A DNA stretch of 64,000 bases, taken from the NCBI RefSeq assembly GCF_022352215.1, contig NZ_JAKRWF010000001.1:1922001-1986000 (forward strand). The letters are read 5' to 3'. This DNA is from Flavihumibacter cheonanensis (lineage in GTDB: Bacteria; Bacteroidota; Bacteroidia; Chitinophagales; Chitinophagaceae). The translations under genes and the position numbers were made by a program. Below the pieces are notes generated by a model, which saw only the letters and a program-made list of their open reading frames with translations, had not been told where the DNA came from and did not search any database. This document shows, piece after piece, positions 3,080-16,688 of this stretch; position 1 is the stretch's first letter; the number at the start of each line of letters is the position of its first letter.

Positions 3080-6000
3080 ATGTACCTCAACTGCAAAACC
3101 TATTTCAGCCTTCGATACGGCACGTTTTCGACACAGGAATTGGTAGATCTTGCCGAAAAAAACGGTATTGAATCACTTGCGCTGACCAATATCAACAATG
3201 TTTCAGATGCCTGGGATTTTTACAATTTGTGCCTGAAAAAAAACATCAAACCAATACTGGGCGTGGAGATTCGAAACAAGGACCGGTTTTGTTATGTATT
3301 ACTGGCACTTAATATTAATGGCTTTGAGCAGATCAACCAATTTCTTTCCTTTCATCTTCAGGAAGAACGGGCATTTCCTGAGCACCCGGGTGTAGATACA
3401 TTTTTTTCCAACCCTGATAACGTTGCCATTATCTATTCCATAGCATCCTTCTATCCTGAAAAATTAGCGAATCACGAATGGATTGGCATTCGCATGGACC
3501 AAATTACTAAATTATTTAGCTTTTCTGTTACCCGTTATCGCCATAAACTCATTGTTTTACAGCCGGTTAGTTTTTTGAACAAACGTTTTTTCAATGCCCA
3601 CCGCCTGTTAAGAGCAATTGACAACAATGTTCTTTTATCAAGACTTACTCCTGAACTCCAGGCCGGAGAAATAGAGATCTTCCAGTCGCCGGAAAAAATA
3701 CTGAAAGCATTTGCTCAATATCCGTTCATTATTACCAATACCTATCGATTGATGGAAGCCAGTTCTATCGAGATGGAGTTACACACAGATAAAAACAAAA
3801 AAACATTTAGTTCCACTCCTGAAGACGATCGTATGCTGTTGGAGAAATTAGCGATGGATGGCTGTGTATTGCGTTATGGCAGACGAAATAAAACCGCATT
3901 TGATCGGGTTAAAAAAGAATTGGCCATCATCAATCAGTTAGGCTTCAACTCCTATTTCCTTATCACCTGGGATATCATCCGTTATGCACAAAACCGGGGT
4001 TATTTTTATGTAGGAAGAGGTAGCGGTGCCAATTCCATTGTTGCTTTCTGCTTACAGATCACCGATGTAAACCCTATTGAACTCGATCTTTATTTCGAAC
4101 GATTCCTCAACCCACATCGCACTAGTCCGCCTGATTTTGACATTGATTTTTCCTGGCTTGATCGAGATGATGTGATTGACTATATCTTCAAACGATACGG
4201 CAAAAAACAAGTCGCCCTGCTGGGTATGGTTACCACTTTTCAATACAATGCATTGATTCGAGAATTGGGAAAAGTGTTCGGATTACCGAAAGGGGAAATA
4301 GATCAGTTGGCAACCAAAGGCTATTTTTCACGCTCTTCCGGTTTTGATCCGAAAAAAGCAGAAGATAAGATTCAGCAGCTCATCCTGCAATACGGACAGT
4401 TGCTTAAAAATTTCCCCAACCACCTCAGTATACATCCGGGTGGTATGTTGATCAGTGAAGCATCTATCTTTCAATACACTGGAGTTTTCATGCCTCCCAA
4501 GGGATTTCCAACTGCACAAATTGACATGTTTGTTGCGGAACAGATCGGCCTGTACAAATTGGATATTCTGAGTCAACGGGGATTGGGTCATATCAAGGAA
4601 GCCATTCGCATCGTGCGTGAAAATAAAAACATCAGCATTAATATTCACGAGATTGAAAAATTCAAAAAAGATCCGGGAGTTCGAAACCAGATCCGTTCTG
4701 TTCAAACGATTGGTTGTTTTTATATTGAGAGTCCGGCTATGCGCCAGTTACTCAAAAAGCTGGAATGTGATGATTACCTCACACTGGTAGCAGCAAGTTC
4801 CATTATACGCCCCGGAGTTGCCAGCAGCGGCATGATGAAAGCTTATATCGAACGTTACCACAAACCCGACTCCTTCGAATACATTCACCCCATCATGAAG
4901 GAATTACTCGAGGAAACCTATGGCATCATGGTATACCAGGAAGACGTGATTAAGGTAGCCCATCATTTTGCTGGTATTGATATGGGAGAAGCTGATATTC
5001 TTCGCAGGGCCATGAGCGGAAAATACAGAGGTAATCAGGAGATGATTCGCATCAAAGAAAACTTCTTTTCCAATTGTATGGAACGTGGTTATGATCCGGC
5101 GGTAATTGCAGAGGTATGGCGACAAATAGAAAGTTTTGGAGGATATAGTTTTTCCAAAGCACATTCTGCTTCTTTTGCAGTAGAGAGTTACCAGAGCCTT
5201 TATCTTAAAACCTATTACCCGCAGGAGTTCATGGTTGCAGTGATCAATAATTTTGGAGGGTTTTACAGTCGCGAGTTATATTTCTACGAACTCTCCAAAA
5301 CCGGTGCCACTATTCATGCACCCTGCATCAACAATAGCGACTGGTATACCTGCATAAAAGGACAGGATGTCTATACCGGATTTATTCATATCAAATCATT
5401 GGAACAGAAAGCAGCAGAACACCTGATTGAAGAAAGAAAAAGGGGTGGATACTACAAAAGCCTGGCAGACCTGGTGGAACGAAGCGCCATCGGAAAAGAA
5501 TCATTAAACTGCCTGATCCGATTGAATGCCTTTCGTTTCACAGGAAAAAGTAAAAAAGAACTACTTTGGGAAGCCAATCTCTGGCAGGAGCCTGCTAAAT
5601 CAAAGGAAAAACTGTTTCACCCGGCGTTGTTTGAAGAAGCACCAGTTAGTTTCCAACTACCGGAACTACCCGCTTATCCGCTGGAAGATTTATACGATGA
5701 GATGGAACTGCTCGATTTCCCCCTTTCCAACCCGTTTCCTTTGGCCGACACCGACCTGGATCAATACATTCCGGCCGCATTACTGGAGCAGTATAAAGGT
5801 AAAAAAATTACTGTTCTGGGTTATCTTATAACCTACAAGCCGGTGCGAACTATCAAAGGGGATCTGATGTGTTTCGGCACTTTCATAGATGCATCACTCA
5901 ACTGGCTTGATACCATTCATTTTCCGGATAGCCTTCAACGTTATCCCTTGCAGGGAAATGGATTCTATGCACTCACCGGAATTGTAGTGGAAGATTTTGG

Positions 6001-6100
6001 CGTACTCAACCTCGAAGTCTCATACCTGCAAAAAATCGGTCTCAAACCCCGCAACTCCCCTCAGGCAGCACAACCCCATCTCCTTCCTCCCACAGGCTAA
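3080..6100 (+). CDS. dnaE: DNA polymerase III alpha-like subunit (DnaE2/ImuC type)
   Basis: C-family DNA polymerase of 1006 residues, shorter than replicative DnaE (about 1150-1200) and in the range of the error-prone DnaE2/ImuC group. The palm is intact: PDFDIDF at 351-357 gives the catalytic pair D354 and D356, and LYKLDIL supplies the third Asp (D495). The GRGSGANS loop precedes it. The N-terminal PHP domain (1-200) is degenerate: where the metal-binding HxH motif should be it reads NCKTYFS, and ALTDH is replaced by ALTNI, so PHP proofreading is probably lost. A tandem HhH region and a C-terminal OB fold (about 920-985) follow. It is paired with dinB 52 bases downstream. Start is the ATG at 3080. 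Confidence 0.88.
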   Translation: MYLNCKTYFSLRYGTFSTQELVDLAEKNGIESLALTNINNVSDAWDFYNLCLKKNIKPILGVEIRNKDRFCYVLLALNINGFEQINQFLSFHLQEERAFPEHPGVDTFFSNPDNVAIIYSIASFYPEKLANHEWIGIRMDQITKLFSFSVTRYRHKLIVLQPVSFLNKRFFNAHRLLRAIDNNVLLSRLTPELQAGEIEIFQSPEKILKAFAQYPFIITNTYRLMEASSIEMELHTDKNKKTFSSTPEDDRMLLEKLAMDGCVLRYGRRNKTAFDRVKKELAIINQLGFNSYFLITWDIIRYAQNRGYFYVGRGSGANSIVAFCLQITDVNPIELDLYFERFLNPHRTSPPDFDIDFSWLDRDDVIDYIFKRYGKKQVALLGMVTTFQYNALIRELGKVFGLPKGEIDQLATKGYFSRSSGFDPKKAEDKIQQLILQYGQLLKNFPNHLSIHPGGMLISEASIFQYTGVFMPPKGFPTAQIDMFVAEQIGLYKLDILSQRGLGHIKEAIRIVRENKNISINIHEIEKFKKDPGVRNQIRSVQTIGCFYIESPAMRQLLKKLECDDYLTLVAASSIIRPGVASSGMMKAYIERYHKPDSFEYIHPIMKELLEETYGIMVYQEDVIKVAHHFAGIDMGEADILRRAMSGKYRGNQEMIRIKENFFSNCMERGYDPAVIAEVWRQIESFGGYSFSKAHSASFAVESYQSLYLKTYYPQEFMVAVINNFGGFYSRELYFYELSKTGATIHAPCINNSDWYTCIKGQDVYTGFIHIKSLEQKAAEHLIEERKRGGYYKSLADLVERSAIGKESLNCLIRLNAFRFTGKSKKELLWEANLWQEPAKSKEKLFHPALFEEAPVSFQLPELPAYPLEDLYDEMELLDFPLSNPFPLADTDLDQYIPAALLEQYKGKKITVLGYLITYKPVRTIKGDLMCFGTFIDASLNWLDTIHFPDSLQRYPLQGNGFYALTGIVVEDFGVLNLEVSYLQKIGLKPRNSPQAAQPHLLPPTG

Positions 6101-6105
6101 TTGTT

Positions 6106-6147
6106 TCTCACGTCTCACATTTCACGTTTCACCTTTCACCTTTCACT
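6106..6147. repeat. Heptad tandem repeat, copy 1 (between dnaE and dinB)
   Basis: Six head-to-tail 7-base units run from 6106 to 6147: TCTCACG, TCTCACA, TTTCACG, two TTTCACC and TTTCACT. The array begins 6 bases after the dnaE stop and ends 5 bases before the dinB ATG. Related heptads occur at 21008, 56858 and 62814. Confidence 0.75.
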
Positions 6148-6152
6148 TCTTT

Positions 6153-7304
6153 ATGTTCCATAGCCGCCATATCGCCCACCTTGATCTCGATGCCTTTTTT
6201 GTATCGGTTGAATGCCTGCGCAATACTGCCCTACGGGGAAAGCCACTGATTGTGGGAGGATCCGGTGACCGTGGAGTGGTTGCTGCCTGCAGTTACGAAG
6301 CACGCAGTTTTGGTATTCATAGCGCGATGCCAATGAAACTGGCCCGGCGCTTATGTCCGCAGGCTATAATTATTAGTGGCGATATGGAACAATACAGTTA
6401 TTATTCTAAACTCATCACCAGTATCATTGCTGAAAAAGTTCCGGTTTTTGAAAAATCCTCCATTGATGAGTTTTATATTGATCTCAGCGGTATGGAGAAA
6501 TACTTTGGCTGCAGCCTGTTCACGGCCGAATTAAAAAAAACAATTTTTAAAGAAAGTGGCTTGCCCATCTCCTATGCGCTGGCCAGTAACAAACTGATTA
6601 GTAAAGTAGGCACCAATGAAGTAAAACCCAACGGGCAATTGGAAATTCCTTTTGGTAATGAGAAGTCCTTTCTCGCACCGCTCGCCGTACAAAAGATGCC
6701 GGGAGTTGGAAAAGAAACGACCCAACTTTTGAATCGAATGGGAGTTGAGACAATCAAAACACTGAGTGAAATACCTGTACGACTCCTGCATAACCTGATG
6801 GGAAAAAGCGGACTGGAACTTTGGAAAAAGGCACAGGGAATGGATAATTCTCCGGTTGTACCATACCGTGAGCAGAAATCGATTTCAAGTGAAGAAACTT
6901 TTTCAAATGATACGATTGATATGCAGTTTCTCCAGCAGGAACTGGTACGGTTAACCGAAAAAATCACCTATGAATTACGCCAGCAAAATAAACTGACCGG
7001 TTGTGTCACCGTCAAAATCCGATACGCCAATTTTGATACTCATACCAAACAGGTATCTATACCTTACAGCAGTGCGGATCATATACTCATTTCAACTGCT
7101 AAACAATTATTTACTGCGTTATATGACCGTCGCTTATTGGTGCGACTCATTGGTGTACGTTTCACGCACCTGATACCAGGCAATCATCAGATCAATTTGT
7201 TTGAAGACAGCCAGGAATCCATCCGCCTTTACCAGGCGATTGACAGCATCAAAAATCGCTTTGGGGTACAAATCATCGGGCATGCTGCAGGCCAGCGGAA
7301 ATAG
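6153..7304 (+). CDS. dinB: Y-family DNA polymerase (Pol IV / DinB)
   Basis: Translesion polymerase of 383 residues. The catalytic acids are present: D11 and D13 in HLDLDAFF, and D105-E106 in SSIDEFYIDLSG, so it is an active DinB rather than a dead ImuB. The conserved YEARSFGIHSAMP segment follows (48-60), then thumb helix-hairpin-helix (KMPGVGKETTQLL) and the little-finger domain. NHQINLFED near the C-terminus is a good beta-clamp-binding peptide. I use the ATG at 6153; an in-frame extension to 5997 would overlap dnaE and translate the heptad repeat, so it is rejected. Pairing with a DnaE2-like enzyme suggests an inducible mutagenic repair module. The last 32 bases overlap the convergent gene. 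Confidence 0.93.
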   Translation: MFHSRHIAHLDLDAFFVSVECLRNTALRGKPLIVGGSGDRGVVAACSYEARSFGIHSAMPMKLARRLCPQAIIISGDMEQYSYYSKLITSIIAEKVPVFEKSSIDEFYIDLSGMEKYFGCSLFTAELKKTIFKESGLPISYALASNKLISKVGTNEVKPNGQLEIPFGNEKSFLAPLAVQKMPGVGKETTQLLNRMGVETIKTLSEIPVRLLHNLMGKSGLELWKKAQGMDNSPVVPYREQKSISSEETFSNDTIDMQFLQQELVRLTEKITYELRQQNKLTGCVTVKIRYANFDTHTKQVSIPYSSADHILISTAKQLFTALYDRRLLVRLIGVRFTHLIPGNHQINLFEDSQESIRLYQAIDSIKNRFGVQIIGHAAGQRK

Positions 7305-8508
7305 GTAATCCTGCGATCCCCAATCTCCTGCTTTCCCAATTCATCCCGGCAATACCCAGGAACAAACAAATTGCTGCAAAAAGCAACATTTCATTGGTAT
7401 AAGGAATCGCCCAGTAAAACATGGCAGTAATTCCCTGAGCCATTAACGTTAGTTCTGTCTGTAAAATTCCTGCAATGAATAACCGGCACCAGTTACTCAA
7501 TTGTCCGCCACGCATCGGCAGCAGGTTTTTCTCCATCATCCAGCCCAGCAGGAATAAACTCACAAAACCCAGTAAAACAAGGTGCAGATAACCGATCACA
7601 ACGGGTCTGTAAGCAAATGCATAATTACTTAACCCAGGTATTACTGATAAACTTTGAAGCAGAATCTTGATGCAAAAGGCCACCAGCGATAAAAACCAGA
7701 TCTGCTGAAGTCCTCTGTGTTGAATGGTTTGCTTTACCGCAGGATAAACTATCCGCAACATAAATACAACCAAAACTGGTTGAATCAGGGCGGCTATCCA
7801 GGCAGCAGTCAACATCCACAAGGGTAATCTCATCCATAGAGCCGACAGGAAATAGGAAGGGATCGATACCCATGCCAACCCGATCAACAGTTTAACCAGG
7901 CGATGCTGTGCGTCTGGAGAAAGCCGGGAAACCACGAGCGCCAATACCCCGAAGAGAAACCAACCATTGTACTGAAAATGCAGGTAAAAATAAATGGCAC
8001 CAAAATAGAGTTCCGCTTTATTAATATGATTCCCCATCAACCAGGCCAGGTAAAAAGTTCCCAGGGAAGACAATACAAGGAAAAGTACTGACCACCGGAT
8101 CAACCGAAATACCAATTGCCCTGATCGTGCAAGAAATTCCTCTTTCCAAACTTTGTAAGCAAACCACCAGCCAGCAAGAACGGATGCGGTAGAAAAAAAG
8201 ATGGATATCGGTCCATATCCCTGAAAAGGAAAACTCAATAACATTCCATAAGCAGTAGCGGTATAAATACCAAGCAGGGTATTATAGGTTTTTGCTTTCT
8301 GCTCCGGCAAGAGGCCAATGATAGCCCCCATCAAAAAGAGACTGATCCATCCGGCAAAAGCAAAATGCGAATGAGCATGTAATAAATGTTTGTGGTGAAT
8401 CCAGGGCAGGGGTAACAATATTTTCAATCGTAATACCAATCCCGCCAATGCTACCAGCAGCAGATTAAACAAAGCCAGCCGGATCCACTTGTTTGCCGTT
8501 GCATTCAT
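7273..8508 (-). CDS. Polytopic membrane protein resembling haem-copper oxidase subunit I
   Basis: A 411-residue protein with roughly ten to twelve transmembrane helices. It carries clustered histidines typical of haem-binding oxidase subunits: HHKHLLHAHSHF at 38-49 next to helix 2, HFQYNGWF in the middle and YLHLVLLGF in a late helix. I interpret it as a cytochrome-oxidase-subunit-I-like or NorB-like haem protein, not a complete oxidase: no partner subunit is encoded here. It lies directly downstream of the Crp/Fnr gene and next to the nos operon, so a role in electron flow or nitrogen-oxide metabolism is possible but is inference. I chose the ATG at 8508; a longer frame to 8562 adds 18 residues with poor character. 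It overlaps dinB by 32 bases tail to tail. Confidence 0.6.
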   Translation of the reverse strand: MNATANKWIRLALFNLLLVALAGLVLRLKILLPLPWIHHKHLLHAHSHFAFAGWISLFLMGAIIGLLPEQKAKTYNTLLGIYTATAYGMLLSFPFQGYGPISIFFSTASVLAGWWFAYKVWKEEFLARSGQLVFRLIRWSVLFLVLSSLGTFYLAWLMGNHINKAELYFGAIYFYLHFQYNGWFLFGVLALVVSRLSPDAQHRLVKLLIGLAWVSIPSYFLSALWMRLPLWMLTAAWIAALIQPVLVVFMLRIVYPAVKQTIQHRGLQQIWFLSLVAFCIKILLQSLSVIPGLSNYAFAYRPVVIGYLHLVLLGFVSLFLLGWMMEKNLLPMRGGQLSNWCRLFIAGILQTELTLMAQGITAMFYWAIPYTNEMLLFAAICLFLGIAGMNWESRRLGIAGLPISAGLQHAR

Positions 8509-8553
8509 ACCGGTTTTTGCTGCAAAAGAACACCGTGAAACCAACAAAAAAGA

Positions 8554-8565
8554 TGATCGCAATCA
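8554..8565. promoter_or_regulatory. TGA-N6-TCA half-palindrome upstream of the membrane protein
   Basis: TGA at 8554-8556 and TCA at 8563-8565 are separated by six bases, the core spacing of Crp/Fnr sites. It lies 46 bases before the ATG at 8508, but the flanks are not symmetric, so it is the weakest of the four sites. Confidence 0.25.
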
Positions 8566-8572
8566 GGTTCCA

Positions 8573-9187
8573 TTAATAAAAAACTTTCCCCCGCTGAATA
8601 GTAAGCCTTCCTCTTTCATGCAGGGTTCGAATGGTACGAATAACCGTTTCAACTCGTAAACCAGTCATATCCGCCAATTGCTGACGGGTTAGATGCAACT
8701 TGCAGGGTTTCTGTTCAATGCCCCTCAATCGCTTGTAATAGTTCAGCATGGTAGAGATTCGTTGCTCCGGATTATTATAAGCCAGTTCCCGTAATGTCAG
8801 GAATTTAAACCGAAGCCTTGATACCAGCAGTCTGGTAAAATTAAAATGGATATCGTAGTTGCTCCGGAGCATTTGGTGAAAATTGGTTTTGTGCAAACGA
8901 AGTAACACACAATCATCATCCGCAATGGCAGAAGCGGCATATGGCTGATCGTCAAAAAGAGGAAATTCTCCGAAGGATTCACCAGGCTCAATCATCACCT
9001 GGATAAATTCGCGGCCATCTTCATTGATGTTTACCCAACGCACCCTGCCCTCTACCAATTGATAATAAAAACAGGCAGCACCTCCTTCCATAAAGATCAG
9101 GTCACCTTTATTTACTTTCTTGAAAGTGGCACCGTAACTCAGCAGTGTTTCCTCGGAAATGAAAGCTGTTGACATGTTATTTGACAT
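8573..9187 (-). CDS. Crp/Fnr-family transcriptional regulator
   Basis: About 204 residues with the usual two-part layout: an N-terminal cyclic-nucleotide-binding-type beta roll (GDLIFMEGGAACFYYQLVEGRVRWV, PGESFGEFPLF) and a C-terminal winged helix (LTRQQLADMTGLRVETVIRTIRTL, then a wing rich in Arg). No cysteine cluster for an Fe-S centre is visible, so it is not a classical Fnr. Related dimeric regulators bind TGA-N6-TCA-like palindromes. Such palindromes occur twice in the 219-base gap to the divergent cytochrome c/nosZ operon, making this the likely local regulator. I prefer the ATG at 9187; a TTG at 9199 and an ATG at 9175 are alternatives. Confidence 0.88.
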   Translation of the reverse strand: MSNNMSTAFISEETLLSYGATFKKVNKGDLIFMEGGAACFYYQLVEGRVRWVNINEDGREFIQVMIEPGESFGEFPLFDDQPYAASAIADDDCVLLRLHKTNFHQMLRSNYDIHFNFTRLLVSRLRFKFLTLRELAYNNPEQRISTMLNYYKRLRGIEQKPCKLHLTRQQLADMTGLRVETVIRTIRTLHERGRLTIQRGKVFY

Positions 9188-9268
9188 TTCGTTCAACAAA
9201 TCTATTCACGGGGTTCTCGCAGAATCATGATAAATGTACTGAATCCGCTTGAGTTTGTCAGGCATTTC

Positions 9269-9284
9269 TGTGACTGCAATCACC
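9269..9284. promoter_or_regulatory. Crp-like palindrome TGTGA-N6-TCACC
   Basis: TGTGA (9269-9273), six bases, TCACC (9280-9284). It matches nine of ten positions of the E. coli CRP consensus arms. It lies between the divergent Crp/Fnr gene and the cytochrome c gene, 138 bases before the latter. Confidence 0.45.
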
Positions 9285-9324
9285 TATCCATATGATCTTC
9301 ATCAGTTTAGAACAATTCCTTGTA

Positions 9325-9346
9325 AAATATGACCCCAATCATATTT
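9325..9346. promoter_or_regulatory. Near-perfect Crp/Fnr-type operator before the nos operon
   Basis: AAATATGA (9325-9332) and TCATATTT (9339-9346) are exact reverse complements around a 6-base spacer, and the symmetry extends outwards (GTAA / TTAC) with a one-base bulge. The core is TGA-N6-TCA. It lies 61 bases before the cytochrome c ATG at 9407, a position suited to activation. The same core occurs before the fasciclin gene at 16671-16688. Confidence 0.6.
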
Positions 9347-9406
9347 ACCCGGATCACACTCAGCTAACATTGCATCATAATCTTTTGTACAATAAAATTA
9401 CTCACC

Positions 9407-9883
9407 ATGAAAAAGCTCCTTCTCCTCGCCGGCATTGCAGCACTGATTTATGCCTGTGGCGGTGGTACCCAGCAAGACAACACAGCTTCTGACGAAGCAA
9501 GCTCCTCTGCCAGCAGTTCTTCTACACCCGCCCCTTCAGACAACCCGGATGGTGTTGGTAAATTCAAAGATGTTCAGATACCGGAAAAATTGGATCCCGC
9601 CCTGGCAGACAAGGGACAATCTGTTTATGATGTTAAATGTTCTTCCTGTCACAAACTAAGTGATGAACGCCTGGTTGGTCCGGGTTGGAAAGATGTTACC
9701 AAACGAAATACCGCTGCCTGGATAATGAATTTCGTTACCAATGTCGACGAAATGCTGAATACCGATCCAAAAGCACAGGCACAATTGGAAATATGTCTGG
9801 TCAGAATGCCCAATCAAAACCTAAGCGATGAAGATGCCCGTAATGTGTATGAATTCATGCGCAAAAATGACGGGGTCCAATAA
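9407..9883 (+). CDS. Monohaem cytochrome c lipoprotein of the nos operon
   Basis: The 158-residue precursor has a lipoprotein-like signal (residues 1-17, ending IYAC) and a Ser/Ala/Pro-rich linker, then a class I cytochrome c domain. The haem-binding motif is C78-S-S-C81-H82. The distal Met is probably M134 in LVRMPNQNLS, followed by the C-terminal helix DEDARNVYEFMR. It should sit on the periplasmic face of a membrane. It is 24 bases upstream of nosZ, so it is the likely electron donor to the nitrous-oxide reductase, as seen in other clade II nos clusters; donor role is inference. The Crp/Fnr-type palindrome lies 61 bases upstream. Confidence 0.88.
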   Translation: MKKLLLLAGIAALIYACGGGTQQDNTASDEASSSASSSSTPAPSDNPDGVGKFKDVQIPEKLDPALADKGQSVYDVKCSSCHKLSDERLVGPGWKDVTKRNTAAWIMNFVTNVDEMLNTDPKAQAQLEICLVRMPNQNLSDEDARNVYEFMRKNDGVQ

Positions 9884-9907
9884 TACATCAACCCTAAAAC
9901 AACAAAC

Positions 9908-11911
9908 ATGAATGCGTTTCTCAAATTGAGCCTTGGAACGGCGGCATTGCTGGCCGTCGGTTTCCAGGCCTGTAAACCCAAAAACACCAGTTCCGCAGTT
10001 AGTGGCGATGCTGCTGTGAAAGCCTATGTTCCACCCGGAAAATACGATGAGTTTTACAACTTTGTTTCCGGAGGCTTTAGCGGACAATTAAGTGTTTATG
10101 GCCTTCCAAGCGGACGCCTGTTCCGTGTAATTCCCGTTTTTTCCGTTGACCCTGAAAAAGGCTGGGGGTATTCGGAAGAAACAAAACCCATGCTGATGAC
10201 TTCACACGGTTTTGTTCCCTGGGACGATCTGCACCATACTGAATTATCTCAGACCAATGGGGAAATCGATGGTCGCTGGGTTTTTGGTAATGCTAACAAT
10301 ACCCCCCGCGTAGCCCGCGTAGATTTAAAAACCTTCCGTACCGCGGAGATCATTGAGCTACCTAACAGCGCTGGTAACCACTCCTCCCCCTTCATTACAG
10401 AAAACACCGAATACGTGGTAGCGGGCACCCGATTCAGTGTTCCGGTTGACTATGCAAATGGAGATGTTCCCATCAGCACCTACAAGCAGAATTTCAAAGG
10501 CACCATCAGCTTTATCAGTGTTGGCAAAGAAGATGGTAAAATGGACATTGCTTTCCAGCTCCTGCTGCCGGGAGTAAACTTCGACCTTAGCCATGCCGGT
10601 AAAGGTCCGAGCCATGGCTGGTTCTTTTTCTCCTGCTATAATAGTGAACAGGCGAATTCACTGCTGGAAGTAAACGCTTCCCAGAAAGACAAGGACTTCA
10701 TTCTCGCCGTAAACTGGAAAAAAGCCGAAGAATACCTGAAAGCAGGAAAAGGCAAGAAAGAAAAAGTACGTTACGCCCGTAACACCTGGGATGAATCCAC
10801 TCATACCGGCAAACATGAAATACTTGAAGAAGTTACAGTATTGGATGCTGTAGCGCTTAAGGATATCTGTTACCTCATACCCTGTCCGAAATCACCACAC
10901 GGATGTGATGTGGACCCAACTGGTGAATACATAGTAGGTTCTGGTAAACTGGCTGCCCTGATCCCCGTATTTTCCTACACTAAAATGCAGAAAGCAATTG
11001 CAGCCAAAGCATTTGAAGGAGAATATGAAGGTATCCCTGTGATCAAGTACGAAGAAGCCCTGCATGGTGAAGTACAGAAGCCAGGTCTCGGTCCTTTGCA
11101 TACTGAATTTGATGGCAAAGGGAATGCTTATACTTCATTCTTTGTATCATCAGAAATAGTAAAATGGAACATCAAAGACCTGAAAGTATTGGACCGTGCT
11201 CCAACCTTCTATTCCATCGGGCACCTGAGTATTCCAGGTGGTGATAGTAAGAAACCGAATGCAAAATATGTGGTAGGATATAACAAAATCACTAAAGACC
11301 GTTATCTGCCTACCGGACCGGAGTTGGCTCAAAGTGCACAGATTTACGATATCAGTGGCGATAAAATGCAACTGATCAATGACTTCCCCACTATTGGTGA
11401 ACCACACTATGCACAATCCGCTCCTGCTGAACTGATCAGTAAGAACTCAGTAAAAATCTTCAAGATTGAAGAAAACAAACATCCTTATGTAGCCAAAGGC
11501 GAGAAAGAAAGTAAAGTGATTCGGGAAGGCAACAAAGTACATGTGTACATTACTGCCATTCGTTCTCACTTCTCTCCAGACAATATTGAAGGCGTGAAAG
11601 TAGGAGATGAAGTTTATTTCCACGTAACCAACCTGGAACAGGATTGGGACGTACCACATGGCTTTGCAGTAAAAGGTGCCAATAACGCTGAGTTGTTGAT
11701 CATGCCGGGTGAAACACAAACTCTCAAATGGGTACCTGAAAAAACCGGTATATTCCCGATTTACTGCACTGACTTCTGTAGTGCCCTGCACCAGGAAATG
11801 TCTGGTTATGTTCGGGTAAGTCCGAAAGGATCCAATGTTCCACTGACCTTTAGCCTCGGAAAAAACAGTTCCGATGCAATGTCAAAAGAGAACAATAGCA
11901 ATGGCCAATAA
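9908..11911 (+). CDS. nosZ: Nitrous-oxide reductase, clade II (Sec-dependent)
   Basis: Terminal denitrification enzyme reducing N2O to N2 at a CuZ cluster, with CuA as entry site. The 667-residue protein has a Sec/lipoprotein-like signal (about 1-22, ending FQAC) and lacks a twin-arginine motif, the hallmark of clade II. The seven-bladed propeller carries His motifs expected for CuZ (DDLHHTE, SHGWFF, SPHGCDVDP, GPLHTEF, GEPHYAQ). The C-terminal cupredoxin has the CuA ligands H584 (VPHGFAV), C620, C624, H628 and M631 (CTDFCSALHQEM). It follows cytochrome c by 24 bases. After the stop comes a strong hairpin, then nosL. Clade II enzymes often occur in bacteria that do not denitrify fully. Confidence 0.97.
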   Translation: MNAFLKLSLGTAALLAVGFQACKPKNTSSAVSGDAAVKAYVPPGKYDEFYNFVSGGFSGQLSVYGLPSGRLFRVIPVFSVDPEKGWGYSEETKPMLMTSHGFVPWDDLHHTELSQTNGEIDGRWVFGNANNTPRVARVDLKTFRTAEIIELPNSAGNHSSPFITENTEYVVAGTRFSVPVDYANGDVPISTYKQNFKGTISFISVGKEDGKMDIAFQLLLPGVNFDLSHAGKGPSHGWFFFSCYNSEQANSLLEVNASQKDKDFILAVNWKKAEEYLKAGKGKKEKVRYARNTWDESTHTGKHEILEEVTVLDAVALKDICYLIPCPKSPHGCDVDPTGEYIVGSGKLAALIPVFSYTKMQKAIAAKAFEGEYEGIPVIKYEEALHGEVQKPGLGPLHTEFDGKGNAYTSFFVSSEIVKWNIKDLKVLDRAPTFYSIGHLSIPGGDSKKPNAKYVVGYNKITKDRYLPTGPELAQSAQIYDISGDKMQLINDFPTIGEPHYAQSAPAELISKNSVKIFKIEENKHPYVAKGEKESKVIREGNKVHVYITAIRSHFSPDNIEGVKVGDEVYFHVTNLEQDWDVPHGFAVKGANNAELLIMPGETQTLKWVPEKTGIFPIYCTDFCSALHQEMSGYVRVSPKGSNVPLTFSLGKNSSDAMSKENNSNGQ

Positions 11912-11917
11912 TAAATT

Positions 11918-11944
11918 GAGAAGGCAGGCAATACCTGCCTTCTC
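11918..11944 (+). terminator. Intercistronic hairpin between nosZ and nosL
   Basis: GAGAAGGCAGG (11918-11928) and CCTGCCTTCTC (11934-11944) form an 11-bp perfect stem with a 5-base loop, followed by TTTAAAA. It starts 7 bases after the nosZ stop and ends 16 bases before nosL. The T run is short, so it probably acts as a partial terminator or 3'-end stabiliser, letting nosZ be made in excess over the maturation genes. Confidence 0.65.
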
Positions 11945-11959
11945 TTTAAAACACTGATC

Positions 11960-12976
11960 ATGAACACAAGGTTATCTCCAATTACCCGAATCATCAGCCT
12001 GGTATCTGCAATTTCTTTGGTACTGGTATTTTTTCTTCCGATCTGGAGAATTGACCTGGTTGCACCACAATACCCTGAAGGTCTTTTTCTGCAGATCCAT
12101 GCAGGTAAAATTGGAGGCGATATAGATGTGATCAATGGACTCAATCACTATATCGGAATGAAACATATTGAAGAAAAAGACTTTGTTGAATTCCAGGTAC
12201 TACCCTATATTATCCTCACCATTGCCGCTTTTGGGTTACTAACAGCAATCATTAACCGTAAATGGTTTTATTTCAGCTGGTTTGGATTTCTCTTATTATT
12301 TGGTATTGTAGCCATGCTTGATTTTTATCACTGGCTCTATAATTACGGACACAACCTGGATCCGGCTGCCGCTATTAAGGTACCCGGACAATCCTATCAG
12401 CCCCCCCTGCTCGGCTACAAGCAGTTACTCAATTTCGGAGCCTACTCTATGCCCGATATCGGGGGTTGGATATTTGTAGTAGTGGGTATTTTACTGCTGA
12501 TCGGAGGATGGCTTGAGCTAAAAGCTATCAGAAAAAAACGCAGTATCGGACCTGCATTTCTCTTACTGCTGACCAGCAGCTTTTTCTTCACTGGTTGTGC
12601 CAGTGGACCTCAACCAATTCCCTATGGCAAGCAGGAATGCAATTATTGCAAAATGACATTGATGAATCAACAATTTGGAACTGAATTGCTTTCCGATAAA
12701 GGCAAACCCTTTTATTTCGATGATCTTACCTGCCTCATTGAATACATCCGTGAAGGTTCTCCCGGTACTGCCGGAGCTTACCAGGCATACATGAGTGATT
12801 ATGAACGTCCGGGGAACTTGCTGGAACTGGACAAGGCTTTTCTTTTCCAGTCGGATGAAATCCGGGGCCCTATGGGTGGCACCATTGTGGCTTTCTCTAC
12901 AGATGCAGCAAGACAAAAATTCAGTGCCTCCAAATCCGGAAAAAATACATCCTGGAAAGAACAAGTTCAGCCATGA
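11960..12976 (+). CDS. nosL: Membrane domain fused to NosL copper chaperone
   Basis: 338 residues in two parts. Residues 1-195 form a membrane domain with about four helices (10-28, 80-97, 103-122, 168-186) and a large periplasmic loop. Residues 215-335 are a NosL domain, the Cu(I) donor for NosZ, with the copper motif C227-N-Y-C230-K-M232. Between them sits FLLLLTSSFFFTGC (200-213), which looks exactly like a lipoprotein signal with its lipobox cysteine C213. The fusion may therefore have arisen by joining a membrane-protein gene to a lipoprotein nosL gene, and the hydrophobic stretch may now be a further transmembrane helix. The stop overlaps the nosD start (ATGA). Confidence 0.85.
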   Translation: MNTRLSPITRIISLVSAISLVLVFFLPIWRIDLVAPQYPEGLFLQIHAGKIGGDIDVINGLNHYIGMKHIEEKDFVEFQVLPYIILTIAAFGLLTAIINRKWFYFSWFGFLLLFGIVAMLDFYHWLYNYGHNLDPAAAIKVPGQSYQPPLLGYKQLLNFGAYSMPDIGGWIFVVVGILLLIGGWLELKAIRKKRSIGPAFLLLLTSSFFFTGCASGPQPIPYGKQECNYCKMTLMNQQFGTELLSDKGKPFYFDDLTCLIEYIREGSPGTAGAYQAYMSDYERPGNLLELDKAFLFQSDEIRGPMGGTIVAFSTDAARQKFSASKSGKNTSWKEQVQP

Positions 12977-14205
12977 TTCGTCTCTTTTATATAATTATTT
13001 GTGCACAATTGATAGTACTCCTGCCGGCACAGGCAGCTGAACACCTGGTGAAACCCGGAGAGTCGATTCAGGCTGCCATCAATAAAGCATCCAAAGGCGA
13101 TCTGATTAAAGTACTTCCTGGCACGTACCGGGAAAAAGGAATACTTATCAATAAGCAACTCGTATTGCAGGGAATTGGTTACCCGGTACTGGATGGAGAG
13201 AATAAATACGAAGTAGTAACTATTACAGCAGATCATGTGGTAGTGCAGGGGTTCGAAATTATTCGTTCCGGTTACAGCAGCATGGATGAATTGGCAGCCG
13301 TTCGAATTAAACAGGCCTCCTATGTGGGAATCCGAAATAACCGGTTACGCGAAAATTTTTTTGGCATTTATTGCCAGCATGCCTCTTTCAGCCTGATCGC
13401 CCATAATGATATCACCAGCACAGGTGGCAGTGAACTGGAAGCAGGTAATGGCATCCATGCCTGGAAAAGTAACCATCTCGTTATTGATGGAAATTTCATC
13501 AGCGGCCATCGGGATGGTATCTATTTTGAGTTTGTAACCGAGTCTACTATTACCAACAACAAAAGTCATCAGAATATCCGGTATGGTTTACATTTTATGT
13601 TTTCTCACCAGGATATTTACACCAATAACACATTCAGTGAAAATGGAGCAGGTGTTGCGGTTATGTACAGCCGGCAGGTAACCATGATTCGCAATCATTT
13701 CCTGGATAACTGGGGTAGCGCAGCATATGGAATTTTGCTTAAGGAAATTTCAGACAGCTATGCCGCATACAATGAATTTTCCCGCAATACGGCGGCAATC
13801 TACATGGAAGGATCCAGCCGACTGATCATATTCGCCAACCGTTTTTTGCAGAATGGATATGGCATTCGCATCCAGGCGTCCTGTGATAACAATGTTATCC
13901 GTAAAAACAATTTCATCGCCAACAGTTTTGATATTGCTACCAATGGAAGCCTGGTTCTAAATAGTTTTAATGAAAATTACTGGGACAAATACGAAGGGTA
14001 TGATTTAAACCGGGATGGTATGGGAGATATCCCTTACCGCCCACTCAGCCTCTTTGCCCTGATCGTGGAACGTAACAACAGTGCTATGATGTTATTTCGC
14101 AGCCCAATGGTGGGTTTACTGGAAAAAGCGGAAAAAATCATGCCCGGCATTACTCCGGAAAAACTGAAAGACAATCAACCCAGTATGAAACCCTTCCCGT
14201 TATGA
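12973..14205 (+). CDS. nosD: NosD, periplasmic maturation factor
   Basis: The 410-residue protein begins with a Sec signal (1-21, ending AQAA). The mature part is a right-handed parallel beta-helix built of repeated turns (for example NGIHAWKSNHLVIDGNFIS, NNKSHQNIRYGLHFMFS, YNEFSRNTAAIYMEGS), ending in NYWDKYEGYDLNRDGMGDIPYRP, which is characteristic of NosD. NosD works with NosF and NosY to deliver sulfur and copper for CuZ assembly. The gene overlaps nosL by 4 bases and nosF by 4 bases, so translation of the three is probably coupled. Confidence 0.95.
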   Translation: MIRLFYIIICAQLIVLLPAQAAEHLVKPGESIQAAINKASKGDLIKVLPGTYREKGILINKQLVLQGIGYPVLDGENKYEVVTITADHVVVQGFEIIRSGYSSMDELAAVRIKQASYVGIRNNRLRENFFGIYCQHASFSLIAHNDITSTGGSELEAGNGIHAWKSNHLVIDGNFISGHRDGIYFEFVTESTITNNKSHQNIRYGLHFMFSHQDIYTNNTFSENGAGVAVMYSRQVTMIRNHFLDNWGSAAYGILLKEISDSYAAYNEFSRNTAAIYMEGSSRLIIFANRFLQNGYGIRIQASCDNNVIRKNNFIANSFDIATNGSLVLNSFNENYWDKYEGYDLNRDGMGDIPYRPLSLFALIVERNNSAMMLFRSPMVGLLEKAEKIMPGITPEKLKDNQPSMKPFPL

Positions 14206-14921
14206 TTATCGCAACCAATGTACAGAAAAAGTTCGGTCGACTGGTAGCTCTTGACAGCATCAGCCTGAGTTGTAATAAAGGACAGACCATCGCCCTGATC
14301 GGGCCAAACGGTTCGGGTAAAACCACCTTTATCAAATGTCTTTTGGGCATGGTTATTCCCGATAGTGGATTTATTACCGTTAACCAGGAAAACATACATC
14401 GCACCTGGGAATACCGGCAACATATAGGTTATATGCCCCAGATCAGCCGCTTCCCGGATAATATGACCATTGAACAGGTCATTGACATGGTGAGGGATAT
14501 TCGATATAAACCCGGACAAGAACTGGATGAAGAATTAATAGAGGCATTTGATCTGACTCGTATGTATGGTAAACGCATGAGAACACTGTCAGGCGGAACA
14601 CGTCAGAAAGTAAGTGCATGTCTTGCTTTTTTATTCAAACCGGATATCCTCATACTGGATGAGCCAACTGCCGGACTTGATCCTGTTGCAAGCGAACTGC
14701 TGAAAGCCAAAATCTTAAAAGAAAAAGCAAAGGGAAAACTAACCCTTATCACCTCCCATGTGCTAAGTGACCTGGACGACCTGGTATCGGAGCTTATTTA
14801 TCTGCAGGATGGGCAACTCCGGTTTCATGAATCGGTTGCTGAATTGCAGAAAAAAACCGGGCAAGCCAAACTGAATAAGGTGATGGCACAAATCATGTTA
14901 CAAAAAACGGCACAACGATGA
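14202..14921 (+). CDS. nosF: NosF, ABC transporter ATPase
   Basis: The 239-residue ATPase of the NosDFY complex powers CuZ maturation. It has Walker A GPNGSGKTT (34-42), signature LSGGTRQK, Walker B ILILDEPTAGLDP and the switch His in LITSHVLSDLDD. The start overlaps nosD and the stop overlaps nosY by 4 bases (ATGA type). Length and motif order are standard for NosF/CcmA-type subunits. Confidence 0.95.
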   Translation: MIIATNVQKKFGRLVALDSISLSCNKGQTIALIGPNGSGKTTFIKCLLGMVIPDSGFITVNQENIHRTWEYRQHIGYMPQISRFPDNMTIEQVIDMVRDIRYKPGQELDEELIEAFDLTRMYGKRMRTLSGGTRQKVSACLAFLFKPDILILDEPTAGLDPVASELLKAKILKEKAKGKLTLITSHVLSDLDDLVSELIYLQDGQLRFHESVAELQKKTGQAKLNKVMAQIMLQKTAQR

Positions 14922-15685
14922 AAAAGATTATTAAATACAGCCTGCTCGATATATTAAGGAATCGTGTAATCCTGGCTTATACAATCTTGCTGGCTGTTGT
15001 CAGTATCAGTTTATTCCTGATGGAAGACAACCCTGCAAAAGCGGTCATGAGCCTTATGAATATCAGTTTGCTGATTGTACCGCTTGTAAGCAGCATTTTC
15101 TGTACCATCTATTTGTATAACAGTGCTGAATTCATTGAACTATTGGTTGCTCAGCCAATCCGCCGGTCGCGTTTGCTTTGGGGTGTTTACCTTGGTATGA
15201 TTACCGCATTACTGATCGCACTGATCCTGGGAATCGGATTACCTCTTTTGATACTACAACCCACTATATCCGGACTCAGTCTTTTTCTTACTAGCGCAGC
15301 CCTGACCATTGTGTTTTCCTCGCTGGCCACACTTTCGGCTGTACTTACGCGTGATAAAGCAAAGGGTATTGGCGTATCCCTCCTTTTATGGTTTTATTTT
15401 ACTTTTATTTACGATGGAATTGTATTGCTGGTTTTGTTCCAAATGGCAGACTATCCACTGGAAACAACCATGATTGGTATGAGTATGCTGAACCCCATTG
15501 ACCTCGGTAGAATCGGAATGTTGATACAGCTCGACATTTCTGCCATGATGGGATTAACCGGTGCATTGTTCCAGGACTTCTTTGGAAATGGATTGGGTGC
15601 CGTACTGGTAATTCTGGTAATGATGGGCTGGATGACTCTTCCTATCCTATTTGCGATTCGTAGGTTTAAAAACAAGGACCTTTAA
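14918..15685 (+). CDS. nosY: NosY, ABC transporter permease
   Basis: The 255-residue inner-membrane permease has about six helices (for example 17-35, 48-68, 95-115, 125-145, 155-178, 228-246) and the ABC-2 type topology of NosY. Between helices is the typical FIELLVAQPIRRSRLLWG coupling segment near residues 69-88. It forms the membrane part of the NosDFY machine with the ATPase encoded just upstream. The truncated haemoglobin gene follows after 14 bases, so the transcript probably continues. Confidence 0.93.
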   Translation: MKKIIKYSLLDILRNRVILAYTILLAVVSISLFLMEDNPAKAVMSLMNISLLIVPLVSSIFCTIYLYNSAEFIELLVAQPIRRSRLLWGVYLGMITALLIALILGIGLPLLILQPTISGLSLFLTSAALTIVFSSLATLSAVLTRDKAKGIGVSLLLWFYFTFIYDGIVLLVLFQMADYPLETTMIGMSMLNPIDLGRIGMLIQLDISAMMGLTGALFQDFFGNGLGAVLVILVMMGWMTLPILFAIRRFKNKDL

Positions 15686-15699
15686 ACAACTGCATCGAG

Positions 15700-16095
15700 A
15701 TGAAAAAAGATATTACTAACCGTTCGGATATTGAATTATTGATCAATCGTTTTTATGATCAGGTAAAAGCAAATGATCAGATCGGTCATTTCTTTACTAC
15801 AGACAGGAAGGTAAATTGGGAACACCATCTGCCAATTATGTATAACTTTTGGGAAAACATTTTATTTTATACCGGGCAGTACAATGGAAATCCTATGGCT
15901 GTGCATAAACAATTACATCAGGAATTTCCGCTAAGCAGGGAAGATTTTGCGGAATGGCTACAACTGTTTAAAAACACAGCAGATGTGTTATTTGAGGGAG
16001 AGAATACAGAATTAATAAAACAACGAGCGCAATCAATTGCGCTCGTTATGGAACTCAAAATTGTTCATGGTAACAACACCTCATCAATCACATGA
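15700..16095 (+). CDS. Group III truncated haemoglobin
   Basis: This 131-residue globin has a 2-on-2 fold of the group III (P) type. A conserved N-terminal DIELLINRFYDQVKANDQIGHFF leads into a helix with WEHHLPIMYNFWENILFYTG. The proximal haem ligand is H69 or H73 (MAVHKQLHQEFPL), followed by the FAEWLQLF helix. Globins of this group bind O2 and NO and are linked to nitrosative stress. Here it is the last gene of the nos operon, 14 bases after nosY, so NO scavenging or O2 handling around N2O respiration is plausible but unproven. Its 3' end overlaps the convergent fasciclin gene by 31 bases and contains a 26-base palindrome. Confidence 0.88.
   Translation: MKKDITNRSDIELLINRFYDQVKANDQIGHFFTTDRKVNWEHHLPIMYNFWENILFYTGQYNGNPMAVHKQLHQEFPLSREDFAEWLQLFKNTADVLFEGENTELIKQRAQSIALVMELKIVHGNNTSSIT
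16022..16047. repeat. 26-base perfect palindrome inside the globin gene
   Basis: AACGAGCGCAAT (16022-16033) and ATTGCGCTCGTT (16036-16047) are exact reverse complements around CA. It lies in the last 75 bases of the globin coding region, encoding part of QRAQSIALVME. There is no T run after it, so an intrinsic terminator is unlikely. Confidence 0.7.
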
Positions 16096-16613
16096 ATGAT
16101 GCCGTTACTGGCCGGTACTGAAGCCAGAATGGTTGCTTTCCCGTTCACCATCACTTTTCCATCTTTTACTGAAATCGTGATATTACCACCATTTGCCTGA
16201 CCCAATATCTGACCATCATTCATCAGATCGGTTTTAATTACGCCCACATACACATGGTATTGAAGAATGTTTTCCAGGTCAGCTTTGCTGGATGGTTGCA
16301 TTAATTTATCCAGTGTTCCGGTGGGCAATTTGTCAAATGCTGCATTCGTGGGAGCAAAAACAGTGAAGGGTCCAGCGTTGGAAAGTACATCTACCAATCC
16401 GGCTGCCTGCACCGCTTTCACCAGTGTGGAATGATCTGCACTTCCAATTGCCACTTTTACAATGTCTTTCTGGGAATCATCGTCCTTAACGGCAGATTGT
16501 CCGCTTAGCGGCGTCTCAACGGCGGCTGCGGCAGCATTGTCAGAAGCGGCCTGGTCGCCGCAGGAATGCATCAGGAAGGATGCTCCAATCAGGAGGGGAA
16601 TCCAATTTCTCAT
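16065..16613 (-). CDS. Fasciclin (FAS1) domain lipoprotein
   Basis: The 182-residue protein has a lipoprotein signal (1-17) with lipobox LMHSC, C18 being lipidated, then an Ala/Asp-rich linker. One FAS1 domain follows (about 55-182), with the first conserved block DHSTLVKAVQAAGLVDVLSNAGPFTVFAPTNAAF and the second at the end (NGIIHVIDEVLLP). FAS1 domains mediate surface adhesion, and the exact role here is unknown. The gene overlaps the globin gene tail to tail, and a TGA-N6-TCA palindrome like the one before the nos operon lies 58 bases upstream of its start, suggesting shared control. Confidence 0.9.
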   Translation of the reverse strand: MRNWIPLLIGASFLMHSCGDQAASDNAAAAAVETPLSGQSAVKDDDSQKDIVKVAIGSADHSTLVKAVQAAGLVDVLSNAGPFTVFAPTNAAFDKLPTGTLDKLMQPSSKADLENILQYHVYVGVIKTDLMNDGQILGQANGGNITISVKDGKVMVNGKATILASVPASNGIIHVIDEVLLP

Positions 16614-16670
16614 ACTGTTATTTTTAGGGTGTATTGAATAATCTAAACTATTACACCCGGTTTATATCTA

Positions 16671-16688
16671 TTATGATTCTGGTCATAA
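16671..16688. promoter_or_regulatory. Crp/Fnr-type palindrome before the fasciclin gene
   Basis: TTATGA (16671-16676), TTCTGG, TCATAA (16683-16688): perfect 6-base arms with a 6-base spacer. The core ATGA-N6-TCAT is the same as in the 9325-9346 site. It ends 58 bases upstream of the fasciclin ATG (16613). Confidence 0.55.

Follow-up and report, generated by a model that had tools for sequence, protein, structure and literature searches.

Bacteroidota that carry a clade II NosZ are considered an important sink for nitrous oxide (N2O), and control of nos genes by Crp/Fnr-type regulators is already known. Among described systems, DNR has the consensus TTGAT-N4-ATCAA, Escherichia coli CRP acts at class II promoters from an operator centred at −41.5, a position that is typical of class II activators and has the geometry of activator contact, and FixL-FixJ-FixK is the low-oxygen cascade of rhizobia. 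Here we describe the nos cluster of Flavihumibacter cheonanensis, which lies in a stretch of 64,000 nucleotides (contig NZ_JAKRWF010000001.1, positions 1,922,001 to 1,986,000; hereafter the window) and combines the N2O reductase gene nosZ, a gene for a Crp/Fnr-type regulator and several sites of the form TGA-N6-TCA. New to this kind of control, here in a member of the Bacteroidota, are the operator, the constant class II spacing predicted for its promoters and an additional element made of paired sites.

In denitrifying proteobacteria, the regulons of DNR and NnrR include nos, dnrN and nnrS, with the copper receptor nosA in Brucella melitensis (PMC1274295). Our locus resembles them in having a Crp/Fnr-type regulator without the FNR cysteines and nos in its predicted regulon; it differs in phylum, in its operator (TATGAY-N4-RTCATA here, ctTTGcgnnnncgCAAag for NnrR) and in fasciclin, which the parts of that source covered do not name (PMC1274295). 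NssA, NssB and NssC of Wolinella succinogenes and their homologues in Nitrosophilus labii are likewise Crp/Fnr proteins linked both with clade II nosZ and with the response to nitrogen oxides, but the pattern used to look for their sites was TTGA-N6-TCAA, in which two mismatches were allowed, the distances to starts vary by promoter, unlike the fixed distance found here, and the two Nitrosophilus regulator genes adjoin nap and nor rather than nosZ (PMC6682613, PMC11539149). A sediment fosmid scaffold carries, as here, a Crp/Fnr gene (called nnrR) near clade II nosZ; it is a single clade II scaffold, placed in the CFB group in the text and in Gammaproteobacteria in the table, while clade II scaffolds were enriched in Rrf2-type regulators and the parts covered give no operators (PMC6264515). 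In searches of the open-access literature we recognised no report of these operators, of fasciclin under nosZ control or of a receiver-Crp fusion in Bacteroidota, and found nothing on nosZ control in clade II Bacteroidota.

Predicted operators and promoter geometry of the nos cluster

The cluster consists of a gene for a membrane protein of haem-copper-oxidase fold (hereafter the haem-copper-fold gene) and the regulator gene (hereafter crp), both read leftward, followed by the rightward nos operon and a leftward gene for a fasciclin-domain lipoprotein. We propose, with a probability of about 0.75, that the Crp/Fnr-type protein encoded at 8573-9187 is the activator of a local regulon and acts through TATGAY-N4-RTCATA operators centred at −41.5. 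The protein would bind a variant site at 8554, the sites at 9328-9343 and 16672-16687 and the operator of a nearby TonB-receptor operon; from −41.5 it would replace the −33 element and recruit RNA polymerase (class II activation). In this way it would turn on the nos operon (N2O reductase, its cytochrome, the maturation factors and the globin) along with the haem-copper-fold protein, the fasciclin lipoprotein and, probably, the uptake of copper through the outer membrane.

TGA-N6-TCA cores lie at 8554-8565, 9271-9282, 9330-9341 and 16674-16685, all within the intervals in which the initial annotation had placed its four sites. The two that it ranked best do have the longer arms attributed to them: the nos site at 9325-9346 reads AAATATGA-N6-TCATATTT and the fasciclin site at 16671-16688 reads TTATGA-N6-TCATAA, and their positions 66-77 bp and 61-72 bp from the respective ATG agree with the approximately 60 bases first given. 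Within them we predict the main nos-operon operator at 9328-9343 on the forward strand (TATGACCCCAATCATA) and the fasciclin operator at 16672-16687 on the reverse strand (TATGACCAGAATCATA); the core at 8554-8565 is the predicted, Crp-type operator of the haem-copper-fold gene, on the reverse strand. The argument from the number of sites fails. The interval 8554-16688 holds eight cores and not four, the others lying at 10240, 10792 and 12319 inside open reading frames (ORFs) and at 9293-9304, an overlooked intergenic core exactly 22 bp after that at 9271, and chance yields about one core per 2.8 kb instead of one per 4 kb. Across the window, 25 bare cores compare with 22.8 ± 4.8 in shuffled sequence; there is no enrichment, and bare-core density was ruled out as evidence. 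A treatment of the four sites as a single class was likewise ruled out, since the 9271 core is one half of a 22-bp pair. The crp gene, described as lying between the best two sites, actually lies between those at 8554 and 9271.

The shuffled-rate count is what one would expect if a short core had matched by chance and relatives retained it only through the similarity of whole regions. We regard this explanation as extremely improbable, because the sites rise above chance in the intergenic density of the longer motif ATGAY-N4-RTCAT, in a −7 box at a fixed distance and in their conservation among relatives. We took 60 loci from 229 genomes with a nosZ match (most similar first, some skipped) and 20 further loci, on average more distant in nosZ, from the 90 genomes that have nosZ and lack a Crp match at about 1e-25 or better. 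A locus counts as crp+ when a match of >30% identity lies no more than 11 kb from nosZ, and otherwise as crp−. ORFs in all counts are simple open frames, not curated genes. A strong site is one of the ATGAY-N4-RTCAT type. In 61 nos loci this motif occurs 100 times between ORFs (0.747 per kb) and 25 times within them (0.025 per kb), while five control patterns reach 0 to 0.007 per kb between ORFs. A strong site is found in the 300 bp before the cytochrome c gene, the first of the nos operon, in 56 of 81 loci. TGA-N6-TCA is present within 150 bp upstream of 33/38 fasciclin genes (those with their own promoter, in-operon copies being left out) and of 31/53 haem-copper-fold genes, compared with 35/338 control ORFs of the same loci. 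The haem-copper-fold count scores the window and loci L058 and L059 as misses, their ORF having been started at an upstream TTG; all three carry a boxed site. The weakest site, at 8554, has counterparts in the same place before this gene in relatives, many of them ATGAY-N4-RTCAT. Conservation of the sites extends to loci whose proteins frequently share no more than 40-60% identity, and the initial annotation, which had staked its regulon on conservation in relatives with the same locus, is borne out in this respect.

The −7 box was scored as TAnnTTTG with at most one mismatch, and its offset as the number of bases from operator centre to box start. In 95 strong sites pooled from related loci, 61 have the box at offset 30, and any other offset is found at most three times. 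The preference recurs before the cytochrome c (28/53), fasciclin (14/20) and haem-copper-fold genes (19/22). In the window the corresponding boxes, each with one mismatch, are TAACATTG for nos (9365-9372, forward strand), TAGTTTAG for fasciclin (16643-16650, reverse strand) and TTCTTTTG for the haem-copper-fold gene (8523-8530, reverse strand; also in L058 and L059). Of the 25 window cores, those at 8554, 9330, 16674 and 10792 have a box at offset 30, and the last of these, inside nosZ and facing backward, is taken as a chance match. A regulon joining nos, the fasciclin gene and the haem-copper-fold gene, as first suggested from four sites, is upheld by box and conservation for three of them (8554, 9330 and 16674) and not for 9271. 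Exact core plus exact box gave 26 matches across six genomes against none for the reversed control; as a genome-wide finder it was set aside, because the boxes here carry one mismatch and its only two matches in this genome both lie outside the nos locus.

In Flavobacterium psychrophilum the box TAnnTTTG is located at −12 to −5 (PMC9723704), and offset 30 from a box so placed puts the operator centres, in 61 of the 95 sites, at −41.5, as at class II promoters. By covering the position of the −33 element, an operator could also keep polymerase out. In Nitrosophilus labii, a Crp/Fnr regulator has been inferred to act negatively on nosZ (PMC11539149). That the local Crp represses rather than activates is nevertheless improbable in our judgement: three different promoters keep the single distance of −41.5, whereas a repressor would tolerate other positions.

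Genome-wide, ATGAY-N4-RTCAT occurs 22 times in 4.84 Mb (reversed control, 14), with 19 of the 22 inside ORFs. The three intergenic copies precede nos, the fasciclin gene and a TonB-receptor operon, all within 20.1 kb, and only they are boxed at offset 30, the other 19 having at least three mismatches to the box both ways. An equal density of the full motif elsewhere in the genome, which had been named as a reason to abandon the regulon, is not what we find. The combined pattern with two mismatches allowed gives 23 matches genome-wide (control, 15), five of them in the 20.1-kb stretch (0.1 expected), before the TonB operon, nos, the fasciclin gene, the haem-copper-fold gene and crp. The predicted strong operator of the TonB-receptor operon (C110:1918550, 3.45 kb left of the window; L158, 10551-14757) is followed by genes for a small cysteine-containing protein, a TonB-dependent receptor and a BNR-repeat protein, and the operon is probably a further member of the regulon. 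N2O reductase is a copper enzyme and the predicted Brucella NnrR regulon includes the copper receptor nosA; by analogy, the operon may serve outer-membrane copper uptake.

The neighbouring Crp/Fnr-type regulator

The crp gene (8573-9187, reverse strand; start at 9187 or 9175) encodes cNMP_binding and HTH_Crp_2 domains, whose scores (PF00027, 73.5 bits; PF13545, 37.4 bits), both above cut-off, place the protein in the Crp/Fnr superfamily. The protein is 99% identical to that of a Flavihumibacter sp., 80% to that of F. stibioxidans and 76% to that of F. profundi. It does not appear to be CRP proper: CRP residues R82 and S83 contact the phosphate of cyclic AMP (cAMP), and a profile-to-CRP alignment has Y and P in their places, while the NCBIfam CRP model scores 61.4 bits against a cut-off of 266, so that the sequence gives no sign of cAMP binding. 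Nor does it appear to be FNR proper, there being no invariant or nearly invariant cysteine among 16 sequences. Compared with E. coli CRP, E181 and R185 are kept, R180 is replaced by V and R82/S83 by Y/P, and the promoters have the Bacteroidota −7 box instead of a −10 element. The recognition helix TGLRVETVIR is nearly unchanged among relatives (E in 55/55 sequences, I and R in 56/56) while the whole protein drops to about 40% identity, as expected if the operator is kept. Residue 180 of Crp/Fnr proteins has been tied to base 3 of the motif and residue 181 to base 6 (PMC1274295); V and E at these positions are consistent with a TGA core lacking the leading G.

A strong site precedes the cytochrome c gene in 50 of 57 crp+ loci and in 6 of 24 crp− loci (23/25 and 5/17 when counted by genus). 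Together with the near-constant helix, this association backs the earlier suggestion that the Crp/Fnr gene is the natural candidate, and we consider its product the best candidate for the regulator of the single sites, whose binding we infer. Of 394 genomes, 127 have both crp and nosZ, 90 only nosZ, 10 only crp and 167 neither, after 12 weak nosZ matches (E above 1e-6) were dropped to leave 217 nosZ-positive genomes of 229. The gene may also have a weak promoter of this type, a degenerate site at 9227-9240 with an exact −7 box (TAGATTTG, 9197-9204) on the reverse strand (9197-9240), found as a combined match with two mismatches.

Relatives have 130 boxed strong sites, or 112 distinct ones once identical stretches are collapsed. 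The 112 stand before the haem-copper-fold gene (34), cytochrome c (30), fasciclin (17), crp (12), globin (1), other genes (15) or none (3). Four of the other proteins were scanned and gave two ScdA/RIC proteins, one hemerythrin and one sub-threshold Usp match; RIC-type proteins with ScdA_N and hemerythrin domains could be read from translations behind boxed sites in a few more loci. The company of the regulon is then nos, globin, the haem-copper-fold gene and, in some relatives, RIC. Because the RIC-type, globin and haem-copper-fold company resembles that of nitric oxide (NO)-responsive Crp/Fnr regulons, our best guess by analogy is that the local Crp would answer a nitrogen-oxide signal, probably NO.

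A 22-bp site pair and the receiver-Crp fusion

The cores at 9271-9282 and 9293-9304 form a pair (9271-9304) that is a second, family-wide element separate from the single sites. The pattern TGA-N6-TCA-N10-TGA-N6-TCA has 114 matches in 10 genomes, eight of them in this one, and none for the reversed control. Among 63 close site pairs before nos, 29 have the 22-bp spacing, and with one mismatch allowed a gap of 10 occurs 50 times and any other gap at most six times. In this genome and two others (G173 and G231), 27 of 28 annotated pairs, part of the 38 counted there, lie between ORFs; their neighbours include genes that by their translations are glutamyl-tRNA-reductase-like, ferrochelatase-like or Hsp20-like. 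Two pairs in this genome precede ccoN and ccoI of cbb3 oxidase, each faced by a box. The flanks, too, tell single sites from pair halves: A−1 and T+1 occur together in 31/33 single sites, 11/94 pair halves and 83/553 background cores.

The position of the pair depends on the presence of crp. In crp− loci the pair has a box at offset 30 toward nos in 15/15 cases and away from it in 13/15; in crp+ loci a box stands 67 bases from the pair in 9/13, because the single site occupies the −41.5 slot. The pair at 9271-9304 would then provide a second input to the nos promoter from −78.5 and −100.5, whereas in relatives without the local regulator the pair itself would sit at −41.5 and −63.5.

One cluster elsewhere in this genome (L209, 4843-16374, contig C186) contains a PAS histidine kinase, cbb3 genes, ccoI, two 22-bp pairs and a receiver-Crp fusion, in which receiver, cNMP and HTH_Crp parts follow one another in a single protein. 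By analogy, the cluster looks like a one-piece FixJ-FixK. It shares with FixL-FixJ-FixK the PAS histidine kinase and the Crp-type output near cbb3 genes, and it differs in that the receiver and Crp parts are joined in one protein and the sites come as 22-bp pairs. A full-length homologue of the fusion was found in the fetched nos locus in 9/24 crp− and 0/56 crp+ cases. These observations are suggestive only, and the pair is perhaps read by the receiver-Crp fusion as part of a low-oxygen response.

An alternative is that the fusion, a one-piece response regulator beside cbb3 genes, reads single sites and pairs alike, the local Crp serving some other purpose. The E-x-x-I-R helix residues of the fusion are identical, its gene is in the fetched stretch of those nine crp− loci, and the ccoN and ccoI pairs are each faced by a box. 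We consider this unlikely. The flanks set single sites apart from pair halves, the single sites track the local crp while the fusion gene is absent from all 56 crp+ stretches, and no pair precedes the fasciclin or haem-copper-fold gene of the window.

Several observations weigh against a local regulon read by Crp, with a fusion that reads the pair. Six of the 24 crp− loci (L087, L102, L110, L195, L199 and L200) keep a strong site, which also favours the fusion as reader of all sites, and since the fusion shares the E-x-x-I-R residues it might read the same core. Conversely, 7/57 crp+ loci have no strong site; in the five mixed genera the crp-site association has thin support, and, because of the kinship of the species, Fisher values overstate its significance. 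Of the loci of 80 Crp relatives, 60 contain nosZ; 76 of the 80 extend at least 300 bp upstream of crp, and 46 of those have a strong site in front of the gene. Several loci outside the family (among them L321, L323, L324, L330 and L331) have neither. No box stands at offset 30 in 34/95 sites, all four boxes of this genome carry one mismatch and are missed by the exact pattern, and crp autoregulation in the window comes down to one match with two mismatches. The box distance of the TonB operon holds in L159 (this genome), L160 and L162 and weakly in L179, of 30 loci; other loci have a strong site or 22-bp pair elsewhere upstream. Finally, 8/11 loci have no pair before the fusion gene and the other three no box facing it; pair-driven autoregulation of the receiver-Crp gene, with a pair in only 3/11 loci (two genomes), was accordingly rejected as a candidate.

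Genes of the cluster and implications

The nos operon opens with a cytochrome c gene with a lipoprotein-like signal (9407-9883; PF00034), which lies upstream of nosZ in relatives too, followed by nosZ itself (9908-11911), a Sec-dependent N2O reductase of clade II type (TIGR04246, 935.2 bits; cut-off, 625). Next come a membrane protein fused to NosL (11960-12976; PF05573 at residues 224-334), nosD (12973-14205; TIGR04247, 425.8 bits; cut-off, 300), the ABC ATPase gene nosF (14202-14921; PF00005, same order in relatives), a nosY-like membrane subunit gene (14918-15685) and a truncated globin gene as the last of the operon (15700-16095; PF01152, 25.6 bits; cut-off, 21), present in most relatives; all are on the forward strand. 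The nosY-like subunit, named for its position and its conservation in relatives, had no match in an NCBIfam profile search. The NosL part follows an N-terminal membrane domain, and the match is in two pieces in some relatives. The fasciclin-domain lipoprotein gene (16065-16613, reverse strand; PF02469, 122 bits) encodes a protein whose C18 is kept in 43/43 sequences. Most of the 60 Chitinophagaceae nos loci have the same gene plan; variants have fasciclin inside the operon or crp and the haem-copper-fold gene at the opposite end, and a few lack crp.

The haem-copper-fold gene (7273-8508, reverse strand; ATG at 8508, 411 amino acids) usually accompanies the local crp beside nos. Its product has no match in Pfam or NCBIfam up to E 0.001, COX1 included, and a sequence search of the family against solved structures gave none up to E 1. 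The predicted structure (mean predicted local distance difference test score [pLDDT], 92.6) aligns with CcoN (8smr_E; Z 34.9, root mean square deviation 3.3, 401 residues, 12% identity) and cNOR (4xyd_A; Z 33.7), and as modelled the protein has the fold of haem-copper oxidase subunit I. H46, H48, H177 and H309 (numbering of the 411-residue protein) are invariant in 27 sequences.

To the left of the cluster (3080-7304), a DnaE-like polymerase ORF of 1006 amino acids overlaps a Y-family polymerase-like ORF, both read from translations. Elsewhere in this genome (L376; C164:634463), a boxed site with two mismatches lies between a Crp paralogue gene and an ORF whose translation is of metallo-beta-lactamase type and sulfur-dioxygenase-like, perhaps another small Crp regulon.

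What emerges is an operator that can be tested and has an exact place in the promoter, together with a candidate for its regulator and a small set of genes predicted to be controlled jointly. Among their products are the fasciclin lipoprotein, the TonB receptor, which may import copper, and the haem-copper-fold protein, for which Pfam gave no match. The fixed-distance and 22-bp pair rules make this regulon, and a wider low-oxygen one, predictable in many genomes. More tentatively, and at slightly less than even odds, Chitinophagaceae and perhaps other Bacteroidota would control low-oxygen respiration through the receiver-Crp regulator at phased 22-bp pairs, which would sit at −41.5 and −63.5 and in many cases face in both directions. 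On the same view, the nos operon would have been rewired, perhaps repeatedly, wherever a dedicated nitrogen-oxide Crp established itself next to it and a new operator filled the −41.5 slot. If this is true, Flavihumibacter keeps the old pair upstream, at −78.5 and −100.5, and its N2O reductase would be gated by both signals.

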